Virus record (IMG/VR): IMGVR_UViG_3300045612_000399
Coordinates: 1 to 40,085 of that record
DNA from: a virus
Reading direction: 5' to 3' (one strand)
DNA length: 40,085 nucleotides
Below the pieces are notes generated by a model. That model was not told the DNA's origin, searched no databases, and was given only the letters and a program-made list of their open reading frames with translations. Below are positions 1,886 to 22,598 of this stretch, one piece after another. Numbering within the stretch: the first letter of the stretch is position 1; every line of letters begins with the position of its first letter. Position numbers and translations under genes: made by a program.

Positions 1886-3409
1886 TTAGGCTTCTTCGGC
1901 GTCATTGGAGGTTTCCGCTTGGGCATTGTTTTTGGCTTCTCTTTCGTCTGAGGCATTGGCTTGTTCCTCTATTAATATCCCGTTAGAGATCGCTAGCGGG
2001 GTTGGCATCGCATTGGCTTTCTCAGCTTGTACCCGCTCCATGATCTCTTCTACGTCAGTATTCGGCGGCAACTGTTTACCCATCTTGAGCAGTTCTAACA
2101 GGGTTCGATGGTCGATCGCTCCCTGACTCCAGAGGTTCAACAGGGATCCCATTTCCTGAGCATCTAATGGTTGGGTCAGCAGCGACTCATCCTGAACCAC
2201 CTGGGCACCGCTACTATCTTCGCTTGTGAACAGACACCAATCACGGATCAGCGACAGGATAGCCTGCGCCTTAGTCCGGGCGAACCCATTTAGGCTGGCG
2301 CTGGCTCTGGTGGCTGATAACCACGCTTCAGTGGCGCTACGCTCAACCGTGCCACCGCCCAAGAACCCTACGCCTTCCTCGTCTATTTCCCGTTTGGTCT
2401 GCTCGATGCTAGTCTGTAGCGATTGGATGCCCGAACCGCCAATCTCGACCACTCCCACCTCATCAGCACTGCCCCCTTCAGGATTGCGAGATAGCTCTAT
2501 GACATGATTAGGGCCAAAGACGATCGGTGGTCGTTGATCGAAGGGCAGATCAGAAACCCTGTAAACCGTGGGGGCATTAACCCGATACTGAATCGTGTCC
2601 AGGTTGCTTTCTTGCCTAAATAGCTTGATATTGAGTTCGGCTGCCTTGAGCAGAAAGGGCAACTGTGGATCGAGATCGCTAGGGAATGGTGCGGAAATAT
2701 CGGGGTAGGCAATGAGGGGTATTCTCTCAATAGGGGCCGTCATCTCTTGAACAGGCACAGCCTCGCCGCGATCGCTCAACCTAGAAACCGATAGCGAGAC
2801 ACCCTCAGGCATCAACCTAAATGTGTGATAGTAAGCTTGTTTTTTCGTGCCATAAGCGCCGTCCGGTTCTTCTTGGTACGCCTGGATGGTTACTTGCGCC
2901 AGGGTTACGCGCCCTTGCCTAACCTCGGTTCTCCAATTTAAGACATTACGCCGATCTATCAGCGTCCATTGTGGATAGGTTCTCGGATCGGCGGCTGTAC
3001 GGTCGGCCGCTTCATCGAGAGATAGCCTCACGTTATTAGTGAGGATATAGCATCCGCCATCCCTCAGGGCTAACTCGTCAGCGTGACGGAAAAACCCCTT
3101 AAAATCAGCGCCAGTGCCATTTAACCCCAGGCCGTCTTCGTTCGCCTGCTCAAAGCTGGCAGGCAAGTCCTCAACCTCAAACGAGGTCAGCAGCCCGCTA
3201 ATGCTTTCAATCTGACCACGGAATTTGTTATTAAAAACTGCCCGATCTACGCGATCGTCATAGGCGATCGGGGGTTCCTGAAAAGCCCGTGGAAGATAAT
3301 CGCCCTTACGCAAATACAATCCGTTCCAGCAATCTAGAACCAGCCGTAACGATGGCTGTAGGAATGCTAGCGACGGATGTTGATAGTTAGGATGCTTAGG
3401 ATCGTTCAT
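1886..3409 (-). CDS. Phage portal protein (DUF4055-like)
   Basis: About 507 residues. The portal is the dodecameric ring at the unique capsid vertex through which DNA enters and leaves. Evidence: it follows the large terminase directly; size is normal for a portal; it has a segment NNKFRGQIESISGLL like the conserved 'R..I....GLi' region of DUF4055 portals, a central LNIKLFRQESNLDTIQYR helix-like segment with 'VNAPTVY', and a C-terminal tail rich in Glu, Ala and Asn. A TTG at 3433 overlaps the terminase stop and would add 8 residues; ATG 3409 is the more usual start but neither has a strong Shine-Dalgarno sequence. No capsid or protease gene follows it in the window, which is unusual. Confidence 0.8.
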   Translation of the reverse strand: MNDPKHPNYQHPSLAFLQPSLRLVLDCWNGLYLRKGDYLPRAFQEPPIAYDDRVDRAVFNNKFRGQIESISGLLTSFEVEDLPASFEQANEDGLGLNGTGADFKGFFRHADELALRDGGCYILTNNVRLSLDEAADRTAADPRTYPQWTLIDRRNVLNWRTEVRQGRVTLAQVTIQAYQEEPDGAYGTKKQAYYHTFRLMPEGVSLSVSRLSDRGEAVPVQEMTAPIERIPLIAYPDISAPFPSDLDPQLPFLLKAAELNIKLFRQESNLDTIQYRVNAPTVYRVSDLPFDQRPPIVFGPNHVIELSRNPEGGSADEVGVVEIGGSGIQSLQTSIEQTKREIDEEGVGFLGGGTVERSATEAWLSATRASASLNGFARTKAQAILSLIRDWCLFTSEDSSGAQVVQDESLLTQPLDAQEMGSLLNLWSQGAIDHRTLLELLKMGKQLPPNTDVEEIMERVQAEKANAMPTPLAISNGILIEEQANASDEREAKNNAQAETSNDAEEA

Positions 3410-3423
3410 GCTCTCAGGATTCC

Positions 3424-4911
3424 CTATCCCCAATAAGCGGTAGATTGAGCCATGCCTATCGTGCGGGTTGCCATTAGGTCAGTGATGGCCCAAACTAGTG
3501 CATCAAGACGGTTTGGCGATTTCATACCCGGTTGCCACGTACATAACTCCCGTTCTAAGTCCGGGAACGTCCCCACATGATGCACCCGCCCATCTTGATA
3601 AAGCTGGTGAACGGGTTCAGCCCTGACGATCTTCCCCCGGCTAGCCGTTACCTCTTTCACTCCGACACCTGGATCAACGTTGCGAATTCCAGACTTAACC
3701 ATATCGCCGCCATAGTTTGTTTCCACGACTAGCGTATCGGCGGCGATGCCTTGGCAGCGATCGCAAGCGCGGCGCATCCACTCATCAGGCGTGCCATACC
3801 CGCTATCATCATGCAGCACATAGTAGTGGTCATCAAAACCACGGGCTACGGCTACAATTCCCGCCTCAGTAGCGCCGCCTGGGGGGTCAACACCAATGAC
3901 CACACGACGCAACCGAGGGGGAGCAGATGACACTCTATAGGGGTCAAGATCACGCGACCGATCCCACAATCCACCAGCAGGCTTATCCTCATGTTGTGAT
4001 TCGGTCAGGAAGGTAGGCAAACCCCAGGCGTTAATTTGTCGCTCCACCACATCCAGCCCTTGACCTTGTGCCCATGTAGGTTTACCCCCCGTCACCCGAT
4101 AGTAAACGCCCTCTGGCGTTACCACGCGATCGCACTCCAGGCCAATAACCGCCGGTTCCTGCGTGACATGAGCGCCTAGCAAAATCTCGGCTCGACCATC
4201 AGCAATCCGAGCGATCACACTGTCTTTATGGATTCTGTTCTGGACAAATAGAACAGTTGCATCAACTGAACCCGCTGGCAGAATTGCGCTACTGATGGTT
4301 ACTAGTTTTTTAAGGACGGCCTCTGGGCTATCGTGTTCTCCATCAATATCGTCCAGAATAATCAGATCCGGCCTGTTTTCCTCCCATCGAGCACCCCGAA
4401 CTCTGGCATTCAGTCCCACCCCCAGCACCGAAAAACCATTAGCAGTCTGTAACTGTTTAGCCGTCCAGTTAACAGAAGCGCTATAGGCGTTAACAGCTCG
4501 ATGGAGGCCGATCTGCTCCAGCAGCGCCGCAATGTTTTGTACGTGGTCGTCTGCTTGGTCTTGGGTGCCACAGACGTAGAGCGCAAAACGCCGTGTCAAC
4601 GCACAGGCAAGATAAGCACAGGCCTTTTCAGCAATATCCGACTTTGCCCCGCCACGGGGCCATATCTCTAGACGACTTTGGGCCGGCTCTCCTAGGCGTA
4701 AGCTTGATGCCCAATTCCATACAGCCATGTGGCGATCGCCTGTTGGAATTCGAGCGGCTGGCAAAACTCTTTGCAGGAATGTAGATGGATGCTCACCGGG
4801 CAACGGTCGGAGGTTTTCAGGCAATGCGACGTGTCGCTTTTTGCAGCGACGGCGCTGCTCTATCTCAACCAGCACCCTGAGCCGCTGGTTATAGCTAACC
4901 GAGCTAACCAC
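3424..4911 (-). CDS. terL: Terminase large subunit
   Basis: 495 residues. It is the ATP-driven DNA-packaging motor and headful or site-specific nuclease. The N-terminal ATPase has a Walker A variant WPRGGAKSD near residue 85 and a Walker B LIILDDIDGEHDS near residue 185. The C-terminal RNase H-like nuclease shows VVIGVDPPGGATEAG (first acidic residue), DTLVVETNYGG (second) and RLDALVWAITDL (third). GTG start with AAAGG upstream; its first codons overlap the end of the small terminase gene by 8 bases. The motifs are complete and the enzyme should be active. Confidence 0.92.
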   Translation of the reverse strand: MVSSVSYNQRLRVLVEIEQRRRCKKRHVALPENLRPLPGEHPSTFLQRVLPAARIPTGDRHMAVWNWASSLRLGEPAQSRLEIWPRGGAKSDIAEKACAYLACALTRRFALYVCGTQDQADDHVQNIAALLEQIGLHRAVNAYSASVNWTAKQLQTANGFSVLGVGLNARVRGARWEENRPDLIILDDIDGEHDSPEAVLKKLVTISSAILPAGSVDATVLFVQNRIHKDSVIARIADGRAEILLGAHVTQEPAVIGLECDRVVTPEGVYYRVTGGKPTWAQGQGLDVVERQINAWGLPTFLTESQHEDKPAGGLWDRSRDLDPYRVSSAPPRLRRVVIGVDPPGGATEAGIVAVARGFDDHYYVLHDDSGYGTPDEWMRRACDRCQGIAADTLVVETNYGGDMVKSGIRNVDPGVGVKEVTASRGKIVRAEPVHQLYQDGRVHHVGTFPDLERELCTWQPGMKSPNRLDALVWAITDLMATRTIGMAQSTAYWG

Positions 4912-5558: not shown

Positions 5559-6863
5559 TCAAAGGTGTCCGGCTAGTTCTGCAACTCCGCCCGTGTATTC
5601 TTCCCAACGCCGCAGGATGACCTCTGTGTATTTTGGCGTTATCTCTAGTCCGTAACAGATCCGATCATTTTTCTCGGCAGACAAAAGAGTTGTTCCGCTC
5701 CCCAGAAAGGCATCGAAAACAATATCGCCCTTCTTACTGGAATTAAGTATCGCATTGTCAACCAATTCGACAGGCTTCATGGTGGGATGGGAAGAAGATG
5801 CGAGAGGTTTTTTTACAGGCCAAATAGTGGTCTTAAATTGTCCCTCCCCATAGAATATGTGCTTTTTATTCCAGGTATACAAAATCCCTTCGTGCTGATA
5901 CTCGTAGTCAAGCCGCCCCATGGAAAAGGTAGGTTGCAGCTTGTCCCACAGAATGAGATGTTTTGTCTGAAGTCCAGATTCCCCCATCATCGCAACTACC
6001 ATTGACATCAGGGGAGGGCAAGTAGCAAAGCAAACATAATAAGAACAGTGATCCTGAGATTGAGACTTGATCGCCTTGAATACTTTCACTAATTTTGCCC
6101 CAAGATCGTCAATGGGAATGTCGTCATCAACTATGCCTGAATCAACTCGCGAGCTCTTATCGAATTTGTTCAGTAAGGCATTCTTGCCCCCAACATCGAC
6201 GCCATAAGGTGGGTCGGTAAACACAAGATCGATTTTATTACCATTCAGCAATCTAGCAATAGCCCCATCGGCACCGCTATCACCACAGGCTAAACGGTGC
6301 CTACCTAGCGCCCATATTTCGCCTACCTTGCAGCGTGGTTCAATCTCGCCTTGCTCTGTCCGATCTATCAGATCTACAGTGGTCGTTTCATCTTCCTCTT
6401 CAGTGGGTAGCTGTTCCTCCTCAACATTCCACTCTGCCATTTCCTCTGGAAACCACATCGTATCTATGTCAATCGCACCCTCTGAATTCCACTCCTCCAA
6501 AACTTCAGTGTCCCAATTAAGGCTCACTTCAGCAACGCGATTAGCATAGACAGAGGCAAGCCTAGCTTTAGGATCATTCGCCGTAGCAATATCGGTACGC
6601 CTGAGAATAACCGGACGGGTGCCATCGGTATCGACCACGATAGGCTTAACGCCATCAAAAACCGTGGCAATTTTTTCCAGACGCAAGGAACCATCAAACA
6701 TTTCACCATCGGCGGCACACGTCGCGGCTCCAATCCACCCCACCTTTTGCAACGACTCCTCAAGCATTCCCTCACCACGAGGGCTATGCCGATTTGCGTT
6801 GATTTCCTGTGGCCTGAAATTGTTGATCTCTTGTTCCGATATAGCGTCGTAAATATCAGTCAT
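5559..6863 (-). CDS. ParB-like / DNA (N6-adenine or N4-cytosine) methyltransferase fusion
   Basis: 434 residues. The N-terminal ~125 residues are ParB/sulfiredoxin-like ('INANRHSPRGEGMLEESLQ', 'GSLRLEKIA', 'YANRVAEVSLNWD'). The C-terminal part is a DNA methyltransferase: VFTDPPYGVDVGG near residue 217 is the catalytic DPPY motif and DAFLGSGTTLLSAEK near residue 381 is the AdoMet-binding motif, so the order is catalytic then cofactor motif (beta class). Such ParB-MTase fusions are common in phages and probably modify phage DNA to evade restriction. No restriction partner is visible. It is the first gene of the leftward packaging operon. A TACAAT-like -10 (revcomp of 6889-6894) lies upstream without a clear -35. 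Confidence 0.85.
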   Translation of the reverse strand: MTDIYDAISEQEINNFRPQEINANRHSPRGEGMLEESLQKVGWIGAATCAADGEMFDGSLRLEKIATVFDGVKPIVVDTDGTRPVILRRTDIATANDPKARLASVYANRVAEVSLNWDTEVLEEWNSEGAIDIDTMWFPEEMAEWNVEEEQLPTEEEDETTTVDLIDRTEQGEIEPRCKVGEIWALGRHRLACGDSGADGAIARLLNGNKIDLVFTDPPYGVDVGGKNALLNKFDKSSRVDSGIVDDDIPIDDLGAKLVKVFKAIKSQSQDHCSYYVCFATCPPLMSMVVAMMGESGLQTKHLILWDKLQPTFSMGRLDYEYQHEGILYTWNKKHIFYGEGQFKTTIWPVKKPLASSSHPTMKPVELVDNAILNSSKKGDIVFDAFLGSGTTLLSAEKNDRICYGLEITPKYTEVILRRWEEYTGGVAELAGHL

Positions 6864-6939: not shown

Positions 6940-7131
6940 ATGAACACTTCAATTTTGCCAGAAGTTCTCACATTTTGTGAGAACTTCAAGTCACAGCTAC
7001 CACGGCGGCAAAATATGGATCATGTGGCTAGAGCGCTCAGTTCGCCTGCGGGCATTCTGCAGATCGAATTCTACGCCTGCAATGGGGATAACTTCGTCTG
7101 GGGTGCCCATAAATGTTTGCTCGTTAATTAG
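6940..7131 (+). CDS. Small hypothetical protein (63 aa)
   Basis: The ATG at 6940 has a strong GGGAGG ribosome binding site at 6928-6933. The product starts MNTSILPEVLTFCENFKSQL and has three cysteines but no family I recognise. A 27-base perfect palindrome (6961-6987) lies inside its first codons, so the region may be regulatory in addition to, or instead of, coding. A longer frame from 6862 exists but its upstream part crosses a G/C homopolymer and lacks a ribosome binding site. Confidence 0.45.
   Translation: MNTSILPEVLTFCENFKSQLPRRQNMDHVARALSSPAGILQIEFYACNGDNFVWGAHKCLLVN
6961..6987. repeat. Perfect 12-bp inverted repeat (operator or stem-loop)
   Basis: GAAGTTCTCACA (6961-6972), a TTT centre and TGTGAGAACTTC (6976-6987) form a perfect palindrome. 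It sits about 100 bases upstream of the leftward methyltransferase/terminase operon and inside the start of a small rightward ORF. It suits a dimeric repressor site; in mRNA it would form a stable hairpin 20 bases after the start codon. There is no T-run, so it is not a standard terminator. Confidence 0.5.
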
Positions 7132-7290: not shown

Positions 7291-7521
7291 TTAAGGGTAA
7301 TCGCCTGATCCGTCTGGGTTGATGGGTATCGACAGATCGCCGTTAGGGGCGATGCCCCATTCATTCATCAGAATGTGCCTGTAAAAGTTCTCTTTCTCCA
7401 TCTGATGCTTATAGAGCTTTATCAGGAATTCTTGAGCTTGCTCCAAGCTCATCCTGTTTACCTGATCTTCAAACGACCTGAGACTAAATTGCTGCTCTAG
7501 CGTTAGTGTTGTGGGGTTCAT
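7291..7521 (-). CDS. nblA: NblA, phycobilisome degradation adaptor
   Basis: 76 residues. NblA dimers bind phycobiliproteins and bring them to Clp protease, so that the light-harvesting antenna is dismantled. The sequence matches the family along its whole core: LTLEQQFSLRSFEDQVNRM, then SLEQAQEFLIKLYKHQM and EKENFYRHILMNEWGI, including the hallmark SLEQAQ and the K-x-N-x2-R/K-H-x-L segment. A 20-residue tail rich in Pro and Gly extends beyond the usual end. ATG start with GAGGGCGG upstream. It is divergent from the sigma/KilA-N gene, with starts 35 bases apart. As an auxiliary metabolic gene of a freshwater cyanophage it would free amino acids and change energy capture during infection (established for the family, inferred here). 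Confidence 0.88.
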   Translation of the reverse strand: MNPTTLTLEQQFSLRSFEDQVNRMSLEQAQEFLIKLYKHQMEKENFYRHILMNEWGIAPNGDLSIPINPDGSGDYP

Positions 7522-7556: not shown

Positions 7557-8417
7557 ATGATCGTTGACCTGCATAAGCAAAGTCCTATGCTATCCAGTAG
7601 CTTACTGATGTCTCCCCCGTTGGTAGCTTGGATAGCTAGCCTGCCATCCCCTGAGCAGATACACAAAATTTTTATTGAACAACGGAACCAGATAGCGATC
7701 GCTAACAAAGGGCTGCTCTACAAAATCGTCAATAGATTTTCTCGAAAAAACCAGATCCCCCTAGAAGATCTGGAATCTGTTGGGATGATTGGACTACTTA
7801 AGGCAATTGAATTATTTGAGCCAGAGCGAGGCTATCAGTTTAGTAGTTACGCAGGCGCCAAGATCAGAGGGGAGTTGCTGCACTATCAGCGAGACAAGTG
7901 TAGTCCTGGCGGCCTGAAAATACCTCGCAGATGGACTGACCACAAGGGCAAGCTAGAGAGGGGGGAGCCTTGCCGCGCCGTGCCAGATAACGAGCGGGCC
8001 GACGCATTGGAGGCGTTGAAATATCAACAGATTGCTAGCCTAAATCGTCAGCCATCTGAAGACGGATCAGGGGCAATACCAGATAGAAGGATGTCAGGCG
8101 ATCCCAAGCTGACCAGTCTTGACCTATGCCATTCTTTAGGATTCCAGACGCGGCAAGGATATTTCAACGCGACAAGGGCATGTAAAATTATCAACCCTAG
8201 CAAAAGACCCTATGATTTCCTGAGATTAACTGGCACACGCAGGAAGAAACTGGCACAAAATACGGGCAAATCCCGCATTTTAAGAAAAAGGGGCAGAGAT
8301 GGCTCGACCTGGCTACATTATGAGCTTGCCGCCGATTTCATGATCTGGCTATCGCCTGAAAGCCGAGATAAGTTGCTATCAGTATTAAGTGCTGAGCTAG
8401 TCGATCTGTATGATTAG
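7557..8417 (+). CDS. Sigma-70 region 2 / KilA-N fusion protein
   Basis: 286 residues. Residues ~40-114 match sigma-70 region 2: RNQIAIANKGLLYKIVNRF, then DLESVGMIGLLKAIELFEPE and RGYQFSSYAGAKIRGELLHY, i.e. the core-RNA-polymerase and -10 binding part. A short LKIPRRW segment recalls the start of region 3, but there is no region 4. Instead residues ~185-280 resemble a KilA-N domain: GYFNATRACKI, YDFLRLTGT, then GSTWLHYELAADFMIWLSPE. KilA-N is a DNA-binding domain of large DNA viruses and phages. The protein may direct host RNA polymerase to phage promoters, with KilA-N replacing the -35 reader. ATG 7557 lacks a clear Shine-Dalgarno sequence; ATG 7608 would leave both domains intact and give a longer divergent promoter. 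Confidence 0.8.
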   Translation: MIVDLHKQSPMLSSSLLMSPPLVAWIASLPSPEQIHKIFIEQRNQIAIANKGLLYKIVNRFSRKNQIPLEDLESVGMIGLLKAIELFEPERGYQFSSYAGAKIRGELLHYQRDKCSPGGLKIPRRWTDHKGKLERGEPCRAVPDNERADALEALKYQQIASLNRQPSEDGSGAIPDRRMSGDPKLTSLDLCHSLGFQTRQGYFNATRACKIINPSKRPYDFLRLTGTRRKKLAQNTGKSRILRKRGRDGSTWLHYELAADFMIWLSPESRDKLLSVLSAELVDLYD

Positions 8418-9107: not shown

Positions 9108-9158
9108 TACCATTGTTTCTCCACTGTCGCAATGTTGACACAATGGAGAAATAATGGT
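9108..9158. promoter_or_regulatory. Symmetric divergent promoter with 25-bp palindromic operator
   Basis: The arms of this ~50-bp inverted repeat match at 21 of 25 positions; the core ACCATTGTTTCTCCA (9109-9123) matches the complement of TGGAGAAATAATGGT (9144-9158) at 14 of 15. Each arm carries a sigma-70-like promoter: rightward TTGACA (9135-9140), 17-base spacer, TAGTGT; leftward TTGCGA, 17-base spacer, TACTAT. The -35 boxes lie back to back at the centre. A dimeric regulator bound here would control both genes; the RHH protein encoded just downstream is the likely candidate (inference). Confidence 0.6.
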
Positions 9159-9191
9159 AGTGTCTAGGTGTTGACTGACTAGGGGGTGTCA

Positions 9192-13672: not shown

Positions 13673-14740
13673 TTGCATAACCCTACCTACCGCTACAATC
13701 TAGAACGACGCAAGGTGCTCTGGATGAACCGTGCGGCTGAGACTTTTTTTGGATATGCTCACTCATATTTGACTAAGCTCAAATCGGGACTACTGGAGCT
13801 GGTTGTATTTCCAGACGATCTAGGGATGGCCTATGACCACCTAGAAATAGCTCGAAAACTAGCAGATGGGGAAACACACTGCTGCGCCCTGCGAGTTATT
13901 CCAGGAAACTCAATATCTTCTCTGACAGCAAAGTTTTGTTATATCTGCGTAGAGCATGACGGGGAGCAGGCTGTCGAGATTGAGGTTTACGTCTATAAGA
14001 TGCCGACGTATGAGTACGATATGAGAAACTTGCTTAAGATGGCCGTTCCACGCGGTGAGCTGGTCTTGTACTATCAGCCAATTTGCGATCTAGCAACTGG
14101 CGAACTGTGCGGCTATGAGGCGCTGGCTAGATTGAAACGGGGCACAGAAATCTTTGCTCCTAACTTTTTTCTGCCGCATTTAGACGGGCAGTTAGAAAAA
14201 GACTGGGTTGCACAGCAGATCGATCAAATCGGCGTAACCCTGGATAAGCTGCCCCCTCCGCTTTGGGTTAGTCTGAATGCGTCTGAGCAGGTTTTAGCAA
14301 CTGGGCTGCTAATCACTTTATTGGAAGGGCATCGCCACATAGGGCGGATCGGGATCGAGGTTTTAGAATCAACTAGCCTATCTTGTCCAGATGCCGTGAA
14401 AAACCTTCACCTGCTAAATACAATGGGAATCATTCTTAAGGCAGACGATATCGGGAACAAGGAAACTGGCGGAGGGCTAGACCGTCTACTAGAAGAAGAT
14501 TTATTCTCGGTTATCAAGCTTGACGGCGAGCTAACCCGTCACTTGAATGAACCCAAAAAGGCGAGTATCACAAAACACCTGCTGGGTATCGCTTCTGAGG
14601 CCAGGCTAAAAACTATTGCGGAGTGGGTGACCAGCGCGCCACAGGCTGAATGGTTGGGTCAGCATGGCTGCTTGATGGGTCAAGGCGAACTCTACGGCAT
14701 GCCAGGGCCCTTGGTTTTTGATGACGATTCAGATCGGTAG
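13673..14740 (+). CDS. PAS-EAL cyclic-di-GMP phosphodiesterase
   Basis: 355 residues from a TTG start, 8 bases after the previous stop. Residues ~8-105 resemble a PAS sensor domain (RRKVLWMNRAAETFFGY, then LVVFPDDLGMAYDHLE). Residues ~115-350 form an EAL domain with the catalytic set present: E149 and R153 in GYEALARLK, N202 in WVSLNAS, E229/E232 in IGIEVLES, D258-D259 in LKADDIG, K282 in SVIKLDG, E317 in TIAEWV and Q337 in LMGQGELYG. It should hydrolyse cyclic di-GMP to pGpG. The loop after DD departs from the usual DDFGTG (here DDIGNKETG). There are no membrane segments, so it acts in the cytoplasm. A phage enzyme of this kind could change host motility, biofilm or light-signalling state. 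Confidence 0.85.
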   Translation: MHNPTYRYNLERRKVLWMNRAAETFFGYAHSYLTKLKSGLLELVVFPDDLGMAYDHLEIARKLADGETHCCALRVIPGNSISSLTAKFCYICVEHDGEQAVEIEVYVYKMPTYEYDMRNLLKMAVPRGELVLYYQPICDLATGELCGYEALARLKRGTEIFAPNFFLPHLDGQLEKDWVAQQIDQIGVTLDKLPPPLWVSLNASEQVLATGLLITLLEGHRHIGRIGIEVLESTSLSCPDAVKNLHLLNTMGIILKADDIGNKETGGGLDRLLEEDLFSVIKLDGELTRHLNEPKKASITKHLLGIASEARLKTIAEWVTSAPQAEWLGQHGCLMGQGELYGMPGPLVFDDDSDR

Positions 14741-15756: not shown

Positions 15757-16956
15757 TTACGATGTGATTTCAATCGATCTTTCCAGCTCGCCAAGTTCAT
15801 ACTGACTTGCCTTGGGGAAAGTTCTGTCCAAGATCATTTTTTGTATCAACTCAACCTCTTCAGGCTGAATTAAAACGTATGGCGTCAGCCCTTTTTCTAG
15901 TGCTAATTTTGTCGACTCTGCTTGCAATCCCAAGATTGCATCTAGTGCCCATTGACGAGCCGCCAAAGTCAAACAGCCTTTCTCTCCGTTCTTTTTGCGA
16001 TGCCTGAAAGATTCATCCCAGCGTAGCCGCCAATAAATATCAGCCAAGCGAGTAAAAGGAGCTAAGTGAGTCCAGCGATCTTGCAATATGACCGTTTCTA
16101 GAGCTTTGTCTATTCGGGGTTTTTCTTCGTTGGCTGTGGTCACTAATGGGCAACCGATGCACCCAGTTCTACTGTTCAGCGGTTCATCATTTTCGGGATC
16201 GTAGTCGCCCATTCCATACGTTTCGAATACCCCATCAATAGGGTACCCGTACTCATATTTGGCTTCCACTAGCCAGTCCCAAACATTGCAAACACGCCAG
16301 TGTAATAGAGGCGACAACTTGTATCCTGTCCCGCTCTGGTTTTTGTGAAACCAACCTTGACCACATTCTCCATCTTCTTTATTGCAGCTAGTCGTAATTA
16401 TTCGATCCCTGGCAATGCTTTCTCCCTTACGGATACCGTCAATTCCTAAGAAATCGTTGCCATATTCAGATCTGATCGCTAAACAAATTGAATCAATTTT
16501 TTCTGCCTTAAGACGATTTGTACACCACCTGAAACGATTGTGTGGAGGAGGATAACCCTTACCTAACATGGTCACAAAAAACCGCTCGGTTTTGGGTATC
16601 GTGGTTTCAAGCTGTGGTTCAGTCCGGCGGATCTGCCATCCCTTGGCTTGAAGATGATCGAGCAAACGGTTCGCCGAATCGAGCAAGGACGGCAGCTCCA
16701 TTAATGTATTGCAAAAAACCAGGATTTTACTTGATGGTGATTCAATTTGCTCTGTGGCAATAAGCCAATCGATCAGTGTGGCGGTTGCCGTAGAATCCTT
16801 TCCCCCTGAATAGCCAATAACCCATGCAGAGAGATTGCTGCCATACGTATTGAGGGAGTTGATAGTTAAATCAATTGCCTCTTGCAAAGACAGCAACATT
16901 GATCTTCCGGCTTCGGTGTGCCGAAAAATGTCTAGCTGGGTATGCTTTTTCGCCAC
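15757..16956 (-). CDS. DndC-like / PAPS reductase-family ATP pyrophosphatase
   Basis: 399 residues. The ATP-pyrophosphatase P-loop is IGYSGGKDSTATA (SGGKDST at residues 50-56). Further family marks are LGKGYPPPHNRFRWCTNRLK (C145) and SRTGCIGCPLV (C266, C269), with additional C191 and C198, so a metal or Fe-S cluster is plausible. The 'GKGYPxPxxxFRWCTxRLK' plus 'RxGCxxCxxV' combination is closer to DndC of the DNA phosphorothioation system than to CysH, which reduces PAPS. No dndA, dndD or dndE homologue is visible. It may work in DNA or RNA thiolation or in sulfur metabolism. It begins 23 bases after the zinc-ribbon gene and precedes the nuclease gene. Confidence 0.75.
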   Translation of the reverse strand: MAKKHTQLDIFRHTEAGRSMLLSLQEAIDLTINSLNTYGSNLSAWVIGYSGGKDSTATATLIDWLIATEQIESPSSKILVFCNTLMELPSLLDSANRLLDHLQAKGWQIRRTEPQLETTIPKTERFFVTMLGKGYPPPHNRFRWCTNRLKAEKIDSICLAIRSEYGNDFLGIDGIRKGESIARDRIITTSCNKEDGECGQGWFHKNQSGTGYKLSPLLHWRVCNVWDWLVEAKYEYGYPIDGVFETYGMGDYDPENDEPLNSRTGCIGCPLVTTANEEKPRIDKALETVILQDRWTHLAPFTRLADIYWRLRWDESFRHRKKNGEKGCLTLAARQWALDAILGLQAESTKLALEKGLTPYVLIQPEEVELIQKMILDRTFPKASQYELGELERSIEITS

Positions 16957-18077: not shown

Positions 18078-18113
18078 TTTTGCGGAACTCCTAATTTAGG
18101 ACAAGAATAGCAT

Positions 18114-18156
18114 GGCTATGGTCGGGCTATAGCCATGCTATAGCCTGACCATAGCC
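18114..18156. promoter_or_regulatory. Nested, mutually exclusive palindromes built from GGCTAT/ATAGCC
   Basis: GGCTATGGTCGGGCTATAG (18114-18132) and its complement CTATAGCCTGACCATAGCC (18138-18156) match at 18 of 19 positions around a CCATG centre. A second palindrome overlaps it: TAGCATGGCTAT (18109-18120) with ATAGCCATGCTA (18129-18140). The two cannot form together. Hexamers GGCTAT or ATAGCC occur five times. It lies between the RHH-like gene and the promoter of the membrane operon. Confidence 0.7.
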
Positions 18157-18163
18157 TAGCTAG

Positions 18164-18192
18164 TTGCAAAGTAATAGAGGCCGTGTTAAAAG
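18164..18192 (+). promoter_or_regulatory. Promoter of the membrane/ATPase operon
   Basis: TTGCAA (18164-18169), a 17-base spacer and TAAAAG (18187-18192) each match the sigma-70 consensus at 4 of 6 positions. The AGTGAAC array begins 2 bases after the -10, so the expected start point lies inside the array. Confidence 0.45.
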
Positions 18193-18194
18193 AT

Positions 18195-18238
18195 AGTGAA
18201 CAAGAGTGAACGTTCACTCTTGTTCACTCTTGTTCACT
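18195..18238. promoter_or_regulatory. Array of five AGTGAAC heptamers with 10-bp period (operator or iterons)
   Basis: AGTGAAC starts at 18195 and 18205; its complement GTTCACT starts at 18212, 18222 and 18232. The first four make a perfect 34-bp palindrome (18195-18228) and the fifth extends it. The spacing within each orientation is 10 bp, so bound dimers would line up on one face of the helix. Placed over the likely transcription start it suits a repressor; iterons of a plasmid-type origin are an alternative. Confidence 0.7.
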
Positions 18239-18264
18239 GTTTTGGCTGTATCTACTGATTTCTC

Positions 18265-21929: not shown

Positions 21930-22547
21930 TTACCGCAGATGCAGCCACAGCACGATTAGAAAAACCGCGATCGCTATCAGCAACATTCGCCAGAGCCATT
22001 CTGAAATTGACCTGGGGCCATTCATCAGTAGGCGGTAGGCGGCTTCGACTGGGCTATTGATGGTATCTGTTTGGGCTGGTGGGGTGGCGGCTTTCCGTTC
22101 CAGTTCAGCAGCGATCGCCTTTTCTAGGGTTACGTTGACGGTTGGAGTATCGTCTTCAAAGTCATCCTCCTCGCCGCTCCAGGTCTCATCAATTGTGCTG
22201 GTAGCAACAAAACCTTTATCGCTGAAACCGAATAGATAGGTTGCTCCATCATTGACGTTCTGCCATGAGTCAGATAGCGCTATTTTTTCCTCTCGAACCA
22301 TCTTGTATGTGGGGTTTCGGCCAATGTGCATTAGCTGCCACTGATCGCGTTGATACTCTGTTAAGCATCTAAGCTTTGCTTGCTGGCGGCTAACAGATGG
22401 ATGATCAATATCAATGTCGGGTTTGTTTTTAGGGGTTGATCGACCGATGATCCATTCTTTCCCCACATCAAAAGCATCCGTGTCCAGGATTCGGGGTTCT
22501 GGTGCAAGTCGATCGCCGTCAAAAAATGTTAACGAGAGTCTAGCCAT
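21930..22547 (-). CDS. FHA-domain protein with C-terminal membrane anchor (205 aa)
   Basis: ATG 22547 is preferred because GGAAGGAA stands before it; an ATG at 22571 adds 8 residues. Residues ~30-110 are a forkhead-associated domain: EWIIGRSTPKNKPD, then DHPSVSRQQAKLR and a WQLMHIGRNPTYKM segment. FHA domains bind phosphothreonine; GR and SR are present, but the usual His of S-R-x-H is Gln. An acidic and Thr-rich linker (SGEEDDFEDDTPTVNVTLEK) leads to a C-terminal membrane helix (WRMLLIAIAVFLIVLWLHL). It is the last gene of the late leftward operon. A tail-anchored FHA protein is unusual in a phage; a link to host Ser/Thr kinase signalling is inference. Confidence 0.75.
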   Translation of the reverse strand: MARLSLTFFDGDRLAPEPRILDTDAFDVGKEWIIGRSTPKNKPDIDIDHPSVSRQQAKLRCLTEYQRDQWQLMHIGRNPTYKMVREEKIALSDSWQNVNDGATYLFGFSDKGFVATSTIDETWSGEEDDFEDDTPTVNVTLEKAIAAELERKAATPPAQTDTINSPVEAAYRLLMNGPRSISEWLWRMLLIAIAVFLIVLWLHLR

Positions 22548-22598
22548 GAGTTCCTTCCCGTAGTGAATCATGCCCCCGTCATCAGAATTCCCTACTGA

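Follow-up and report, generated by a model that had tools for sequence, protein, structure and literature searches.

The window, a 40,085-nucleotide stretch (40 kb) making up an unclosed IMG/VR virus record (IMGVR_UViG_3300045612_000399), contains a single ATG-initiated open reading frame in which a sigma-70 family module is followed by a KilA-N domain (Table 1). This fused gene forms the left edge of a plus-strand cluster that also holds a DnaD-like replication gene and a gene for an EAL-domain protein. To its left, on the minus strand and divergent from it, lie the adjacent portal and TerL genes and then the methylase gene, beyond which the fused gene is found; the tape measure gene and the rest of its block lie to the right, also on the minus strand. 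Divergent nblA begins 35 bases upstream of the fused gene. HIP1, an octamer signature of cyanobacteria (GCGATCGC), occurs 35 times in the window (positions 1–40085) as compared to 0.7 expected copies, while none was found in the examined stretches of two TerL relatives (L004 and L005). Judged by this octamer, the host is a HIP1-rich cyanobacterium, and nblA likewise marks a cyanobacterial host, upholding the cyanobacterial phage setting given in a preliminary description of this DNA. A near-identical contig (L003) ends at about window position 7130, short of the fused gene.

The EAL-domain gene of the plus-strand cluster (13673–14740, +; Pfam E 5.6e-31, residues 121–344) is of the c-di-GMP phosphodiesterase type, and an EAL domain is unusual for a phage genome. 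Between an 82-aa minus-strand ORF and the plus-strand cluster sits an inverted repeat (9108–9159) with 25-nt arms of 84% complementarity, a 2-nt gap and a TTGACA box in the right arm, which looks like a candidate operator-promoter. Dense nested palindromes occupy positions 18108–18243 between divergent ORFs, one of them perfect and 34 nt long (AGTGAACAAGAGTGAAC/GTTCACTCTTGTTCACT). A PAPS-reductase family gene (15757–16956, −) matches DndC (PADLOC E 1.8e-35) and also phage PAPS reductases, and could be a DNA-modification or counter-defence gene, and an FHA-domain protein is encoded among the structural-side genes (21930–22571, −; Pfam E 2.2e-6).

Table 1. The fused gene, its parts and its neighbours in the window
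Feature	Position	Strand	Size or evidence
Portal protein (DUF4055 / phrog_145)	1886..3433	-	
TerL (terminase large subunit)	3424..4911	-	PHROG phrog_38 E 3.2e-54; Pfam Terminase_6C
DNA methyltransferase (N6_N4_Mtase), ParB-like N-terminal match	5559..6863	-	
nblA (phycobilisome degradation)	7291..7521	-	Pfam NblA E 9.8e-22
Fused gene, sigma-70 region 2 + region-3-like part + C-terminal KilA-N	7557..8417	+	286 aa
Sigma-70 region 2, predicted core-binding and -10 reading module, residues 40-115	7674..7901	+	Pfam PF04542, PDB sigma chains, model
Region-3-like helices, residues 116-165	7902..8051	+	Alignment, model helices, structural matches
Disordered linker, residues 166-194, at region 3.2 position	8052..8138	+	Model pLDDT
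KilA-N domain, residues 195-279, at region 4 position	8139..8393	+	Pfam PF04383, own profile, Mbp1 match

When the fused protein was compared with Pfam-A, two domains scored above their curated cut-offs, namely Sigma70_r2 (PF04542; residues 49–114, E 1.4e-11, 44.4 bits versus a cut-off of 24) and KilA-N (PF04383; residues 199–274, E 3.1e-9, 37.1 bits versus a gathering score of 23.8, and 39.1 bits in a search of the whole record), and nothing else was returned up to E 1. Region 4 (Sigma70_r4) was absent at this threshold, with KilA-N there instead; Sigma70_r3 also gave no Pfam-A match, though the predicted structure matches sigma70 and sigmaS through region 3 (see below). A KilA-N profile of our own set the domain limits listed in Table 1. 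PHROGs provided independent agreement with this division, the sigma factor family phrog_351 covering residues 42–165 (E 6.5e-25) and the transcriptional regulator phrog_129 residues 197–268 (E 1.3e-5), with an additional match of the KilA-N part to phrog_1136 (E 1.3e-6). Many sigma chains of the PDB matched the first part in a sequence search (phmmer), and the best NCBIfam models were SigF and SigB/SigF/SigG, far under their cut-offs. The preliminary description had assigned the N-terminal half to sigma-70 region 2 and the C-terminal ~95 residues to KilA-N, and had noted region 4 as missing; each of these assignments was borne out. The sigma module and KilA-N stand in this order in one continuous frame: among the six possible frames, the annotated one had the highest score in each of the ten 50-codon windows, with a weak codon signal in the KilA-N half (only ~0 bits per codon), and the KilA-N part retains its conserved residues (AT, TWLH, LA, W, S). 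Synthesis of a separate KilA-N product from an internal ATG (residue 179, at the linker) is not supported, as AAGG directly abuts this codon and leaves less space than a normal ribosome site has. A role in defence was also discarded, the match to MzaA covering region 2 only and that to PDC-S22 being weak.

An AlphaFold2 model, built with an alignment of 43 viral fragments, predicted region 2 with confidence (pLDDT 95–98), followed by a pair of region-3-like helices at residues 124–134 and 144–163 (pLDDT around 75), a disordered stretch at residues 168–185 (pLDDT below 50) and a KilA-N fold with its strands and helices at mixed confidence (pLDDT about 70 to 93). The structural search was made with residues 21–170 only, and the KilA-N fold rests on pLDDT together with sequence profiles. 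Solved sigma factors aligned from residue 21 to about residue 170. Region 2 matched domain 2 of SigE (Z 14.0 with an rmsd of 1.3 over 78 residues), and longer matches to Escherichia coli sigma70 354–500 (Z 14.1, rmsd 3.8 over 132 residues) and sigmaS 82–220 (Z 12.3, rmsd 3.1 over 122 residues) ended at approximately residues 161–172. Because these longer matches extend past region 2, the position of region 3 is filled too. In the alignment, KIPRRWTDHKGKLER comes after region 2 in the fused protein, as KFPSRWREQWGKVQRL does in relatives, and the region-3-like part opens with KIPRRW-x4-GK, the counterpart in a TerL-linked clade of phage sigma factors (see below) being KFPSRW-x4-GK. The −10 reading face of region 2 is kept, and the model suggests that region 3 is at least partly kept as well. 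The sigma part had first been described as region 2; this region is present, but the region-3-like helices that follow it had been overlooked. Profile and structure checks of both halves, as initially proposed, found the KilA-N similarity and no region 4, the region-3-like helices ending before the linker.

KilA-N is a widespread viral domain, kin to fungal cell-cycle regulators and common in phage regulators, though its role in phages is poorly known. With the C-terminal part alone as query, tblastn recovered proteins annotated as KilA-N from HK97, Klebsiella and Pseudanabaena phages. A profile of this part and five relatives matched the DNA-binding domain of Mbp1 in the PDB (E 9.3e-5), consistent with the relationship between KilA-N and APSES domains described in the literature (PMC4862756), and the KilA-N domain of the fused protein is predicted by this homology to bind DNA. 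The conserved AT and TW-H residues are shared with phage KilA-N proteins (HK97 gp73, the Pseudanabaena phage PA-SR01 and Pam2 proteins, and BstA). In contrast, these proteins carry KilA-N N-terminally, followed by another stretch, whereas here it forms the C-terminal end of a sigma protein. A second scan of genome contigs, led by KilA-N, yielded 40 loci labelled Pseudomonadota, in which matches were confined to the KilA-N part and the preceding linker.

The fused architecture is unique in the collections searched. Among 50,697 phage records and 72,556 plasmid records, tblastn gave no place with 80% of the query covered, scans of viral contigs with either half alone gave no match, and a search of genome contigs found no relative of the fused protein. 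The only match of the first scan (L002) was due to chance, the peptide RWTDHKGK belonging to an ORF other than a sigma gene. In the full-text literature, with most subscription journals outside its scope, no paper joined KilA-N, sigma factor and fused, and the one text with both KilA-N and sigma-70 describes separate genes. The earlier remark that no protein of such architecture had been described agrees with these results across the collections and papers searched. Each module was known already; their union in one protein, with KilA-N at the place of region 4, was not. The fusion rests on only one metagenomic contig.

Alignment scans of IMG/VR identified a clade of phage sigma genes located behind TerL, often directly before the portal gene, an order equal to the arrangement published for P-SS2 (TerS-TerL-group 3 sigma; PMC2784084). 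In a phylogenetic tree, the sigma half fell on the P-SS2-like side with support of 89/92 and on a long branch, and it is likely, although not certain, to be kin to this TerL-linked clade. The RW-x4-GK start of region 3 is common to the fused protein and the freshwater part of the clade, and the portal protein of the window belongs to a family also found in sigma-clade phages. Like the group 3 sigma of P-SS2 (ORF 003, ACT65565) and its clade, the fused protein displays region 2 homology and no recognisable Pfam region 4, and is the product of a phage sigma gene beside terminase genes; P-SS2 also has a cyanobacterial host. However, the clade sigmas are without KilA-N, their C-terminal part being another helical domain, and their genes are co-directional with TerL, whereas the fused gene runs divergently from it at a distance of 2.6 kb. 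By tblastn, the sigma half matched Cylindrospermopsis phage Cr-LKS4 best (43.8% over residues 40–128). The sigma factors of this phage and of Microcystis phage MaAM05 share region 2 with the fused protein but have a region 4 and no KilA-N, region 4 being strong in MaAM05 (E 1.4e-15, same kind of scan) and below cut-off in Cr-LKS4.

Among the clade sigmas tested, Pfam region 2 was present and Pfam region 4 was not found. In a model of one member (L229), regions 2 and 3 led through a loose linker into four short helices, which could be superposed on the sigma70 end only with a high rmsd. With hhalign, neither the C-terminal part of the clade nor KilA-N was significantly similar to canonical region 4. 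This modelled C-terminal part may be a degenerate region 4. As the tested members of this related phage clade are also without a recognisable region 4, that region may have been lost before the fusion arose, and what KilA-N displaced may have been a degenerate tail instead of a working −35 reader. The initial proposal that KilA-N stands in place of the −35 reader is partly sustained: KilA-N does occupy the region 4 position, but the tail that it replaced may have been degenerate already.

A search for co-occurrence of Sigma70_r2 and KilA-N, suggested at the outset, revealed the two as separate neighbouring genes and no second fusion. A downstream KilA-N gene on the same strand was present in 5 of 23 informative clusters of the sigma clade, counted from a scan with sigma patterns only and hence not selected for KilA-N, while the two modules shared one frame at none of 133 sigma loci and at none of at least 162 KilA-N loci. 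By rough arithmetic, about 0.03 KilA-N genes would be expected by chance in 23 stretches of 2.2 kb, based on 50 sigma-bearing virus records (about 3.4 Mb summed) with only 2 KilA-N genes not of the clade-linked kind. In all, 13 clade contigs carry a separate KilA-N gene that is co-directional with sigma and lies 0.2 to 2.1 kb behind it; contig L231, where KilA-N lies upstream of sigma on the other strand, was left out of the count. Two phages, L233 and L234, are 96% identical through TerL and sigma, and their similarity stops at the KilA-N start codon and resumes in the last part of that gene, indicating that the domain has been exchanged between relatives. The swapped KilA-N alleles (L233:3713–4402 and L234:2389–3105) have an N-terminal cysteine-rich, zinc-finger-like part. 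Such a cysteine-rich part is found in the separate KilA-N genes of other phages, and the interval is shared with other variable genes. Modules that are adjacent in some genomes and fused in another often cooperate. This argument is weakened here because the neighbouring interval takes up other genes too, and the sigma/KilA-N linkage may reflect an insertion hot spot.

The scores of both domains above curated cut-offs, the PHROG matches, the predicted folds, the clade kinship and the recurrent sigma/KilA-N linkage argue that the fused protein is, on balance, a phage promoter-specificity factor of the sigma-70 family with region 4 replaced by a KilA-N DNA-binding domain. Region 2 would dock on the clamp helices of the host polymerase β′ subunit and open a phage −10-like element, the region-3-like helices may assist at an extended −10, and KilA-N, on its flexible linker, would bind a phage-specific upstream site and thereby choose promoters. 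We infer in this way that the protein would bind core polymerase, bind DNA through KilA-N, select promoters and drive genes from them. The tie to late genes supposed in the preliminary description was a guess; the fused gene neighbours nblA and is divergent from the methylase, terminase and portal genes. That a viral sigma can do without region 4 is shown by phage T4, whose gp55 works with a separate gp33 on the β flap tip (PMC7892883); this split sigma is reminiscent of the fused protein in that the role of region 4 is supplied by another module. However, gp33 is a separate flap-binding protein and T4 late transcription needs the gp45 clamp, whereas here a DNA-binding domain is fused and nothing points to a flap binder. 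The β flap is also held by sigma region 4, and we know of no KilA-N domain that binds it, which counts against the promoter-specificity reading, as do the single contig, the poorly known role of KilA-N in phages, the weak codon signal of the KilA-N half and the potential insertion hot spot. Tentatively, the fused protein could be a domain-swapped sigma in which KilA-N replaced the −35 reader, giving a new promoter class on phage DNA only; in sister phages, separate sigma and KilA-N proteins may cooperate, with KilA-N as the missing upstream specificity part of the whole region-4-less clade and alleles exchanged between close relatives. The clade phages may not need KilA-N, since their C-terminal part may be a degenerate region 4.

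An unlikely alternative function is that of a sigma-like competitor or appropriator. Region 2 would take the host core and displace host sigma, and KilA-N would anchor the complex to phage DNA or an operator; no −35-like element would be read, and transcription would be shut down or localised instead of promoters being chosen. The absence of region 4 and its flap contact would suit this role, as would the annotation of phrog_129 as a transcriptional regulator and the occurrence of KilA-N in numerous phage regulators as well as in BstA, an abortive-infection protein (PMC8585504). However, the −10 reading face and region-3-like part that have been kept would be needless for a mere competitor, and the sigma gene of the clade is a normal viral component of the packaging region. 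It is improbable that the fusion is neutral or a recent accident, with a mobile KilA-N gene placed in frame behind a sigma gene already without region 4 and a tail that adds nothing: the frame is open, with no stop across both domains and the linker, conserved KilA-N residues have been kept, and both domains are predicted to fold with fair to high confidence, although KilA-N genes recur in the variable interval behind sigma in related phages, their alleles change from the start codon in phages otherwise about 96% identical (L233 versus L234), the KilA-N half gives little codon signal and no second example was found. An assembly error joining two genes of different phages is very improbable, for while there is a single metagenomic contig, its near-identical counterpart stops before the gene and databases may omit near copies, the junction shows no stop or frame change and the best coding frame runs throughout, the base composition of both halves is near the whole-window value, and a random join keeps strand and frame in only ~1/6 of cases and must also fall in the linker.

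Promoter choice by sigma factors relies on region 2, which reads the −10 element, and on region 4, which reads the −35 element. As a promoter-specificity factor, the fused protein would be a natural sigma whose region 4 position is taken by an unrelated DNA-binding domain, and would show that the upstream part is exchangeable. It would also give a ready test of what else region 4 does apart from reading DNA, and would link KilA-N to a role in transcription, with the sister phages that encode both modules as separate neighbouring genes as an available comparison. If true as it looks, this would be a new way to redirect host transcription.
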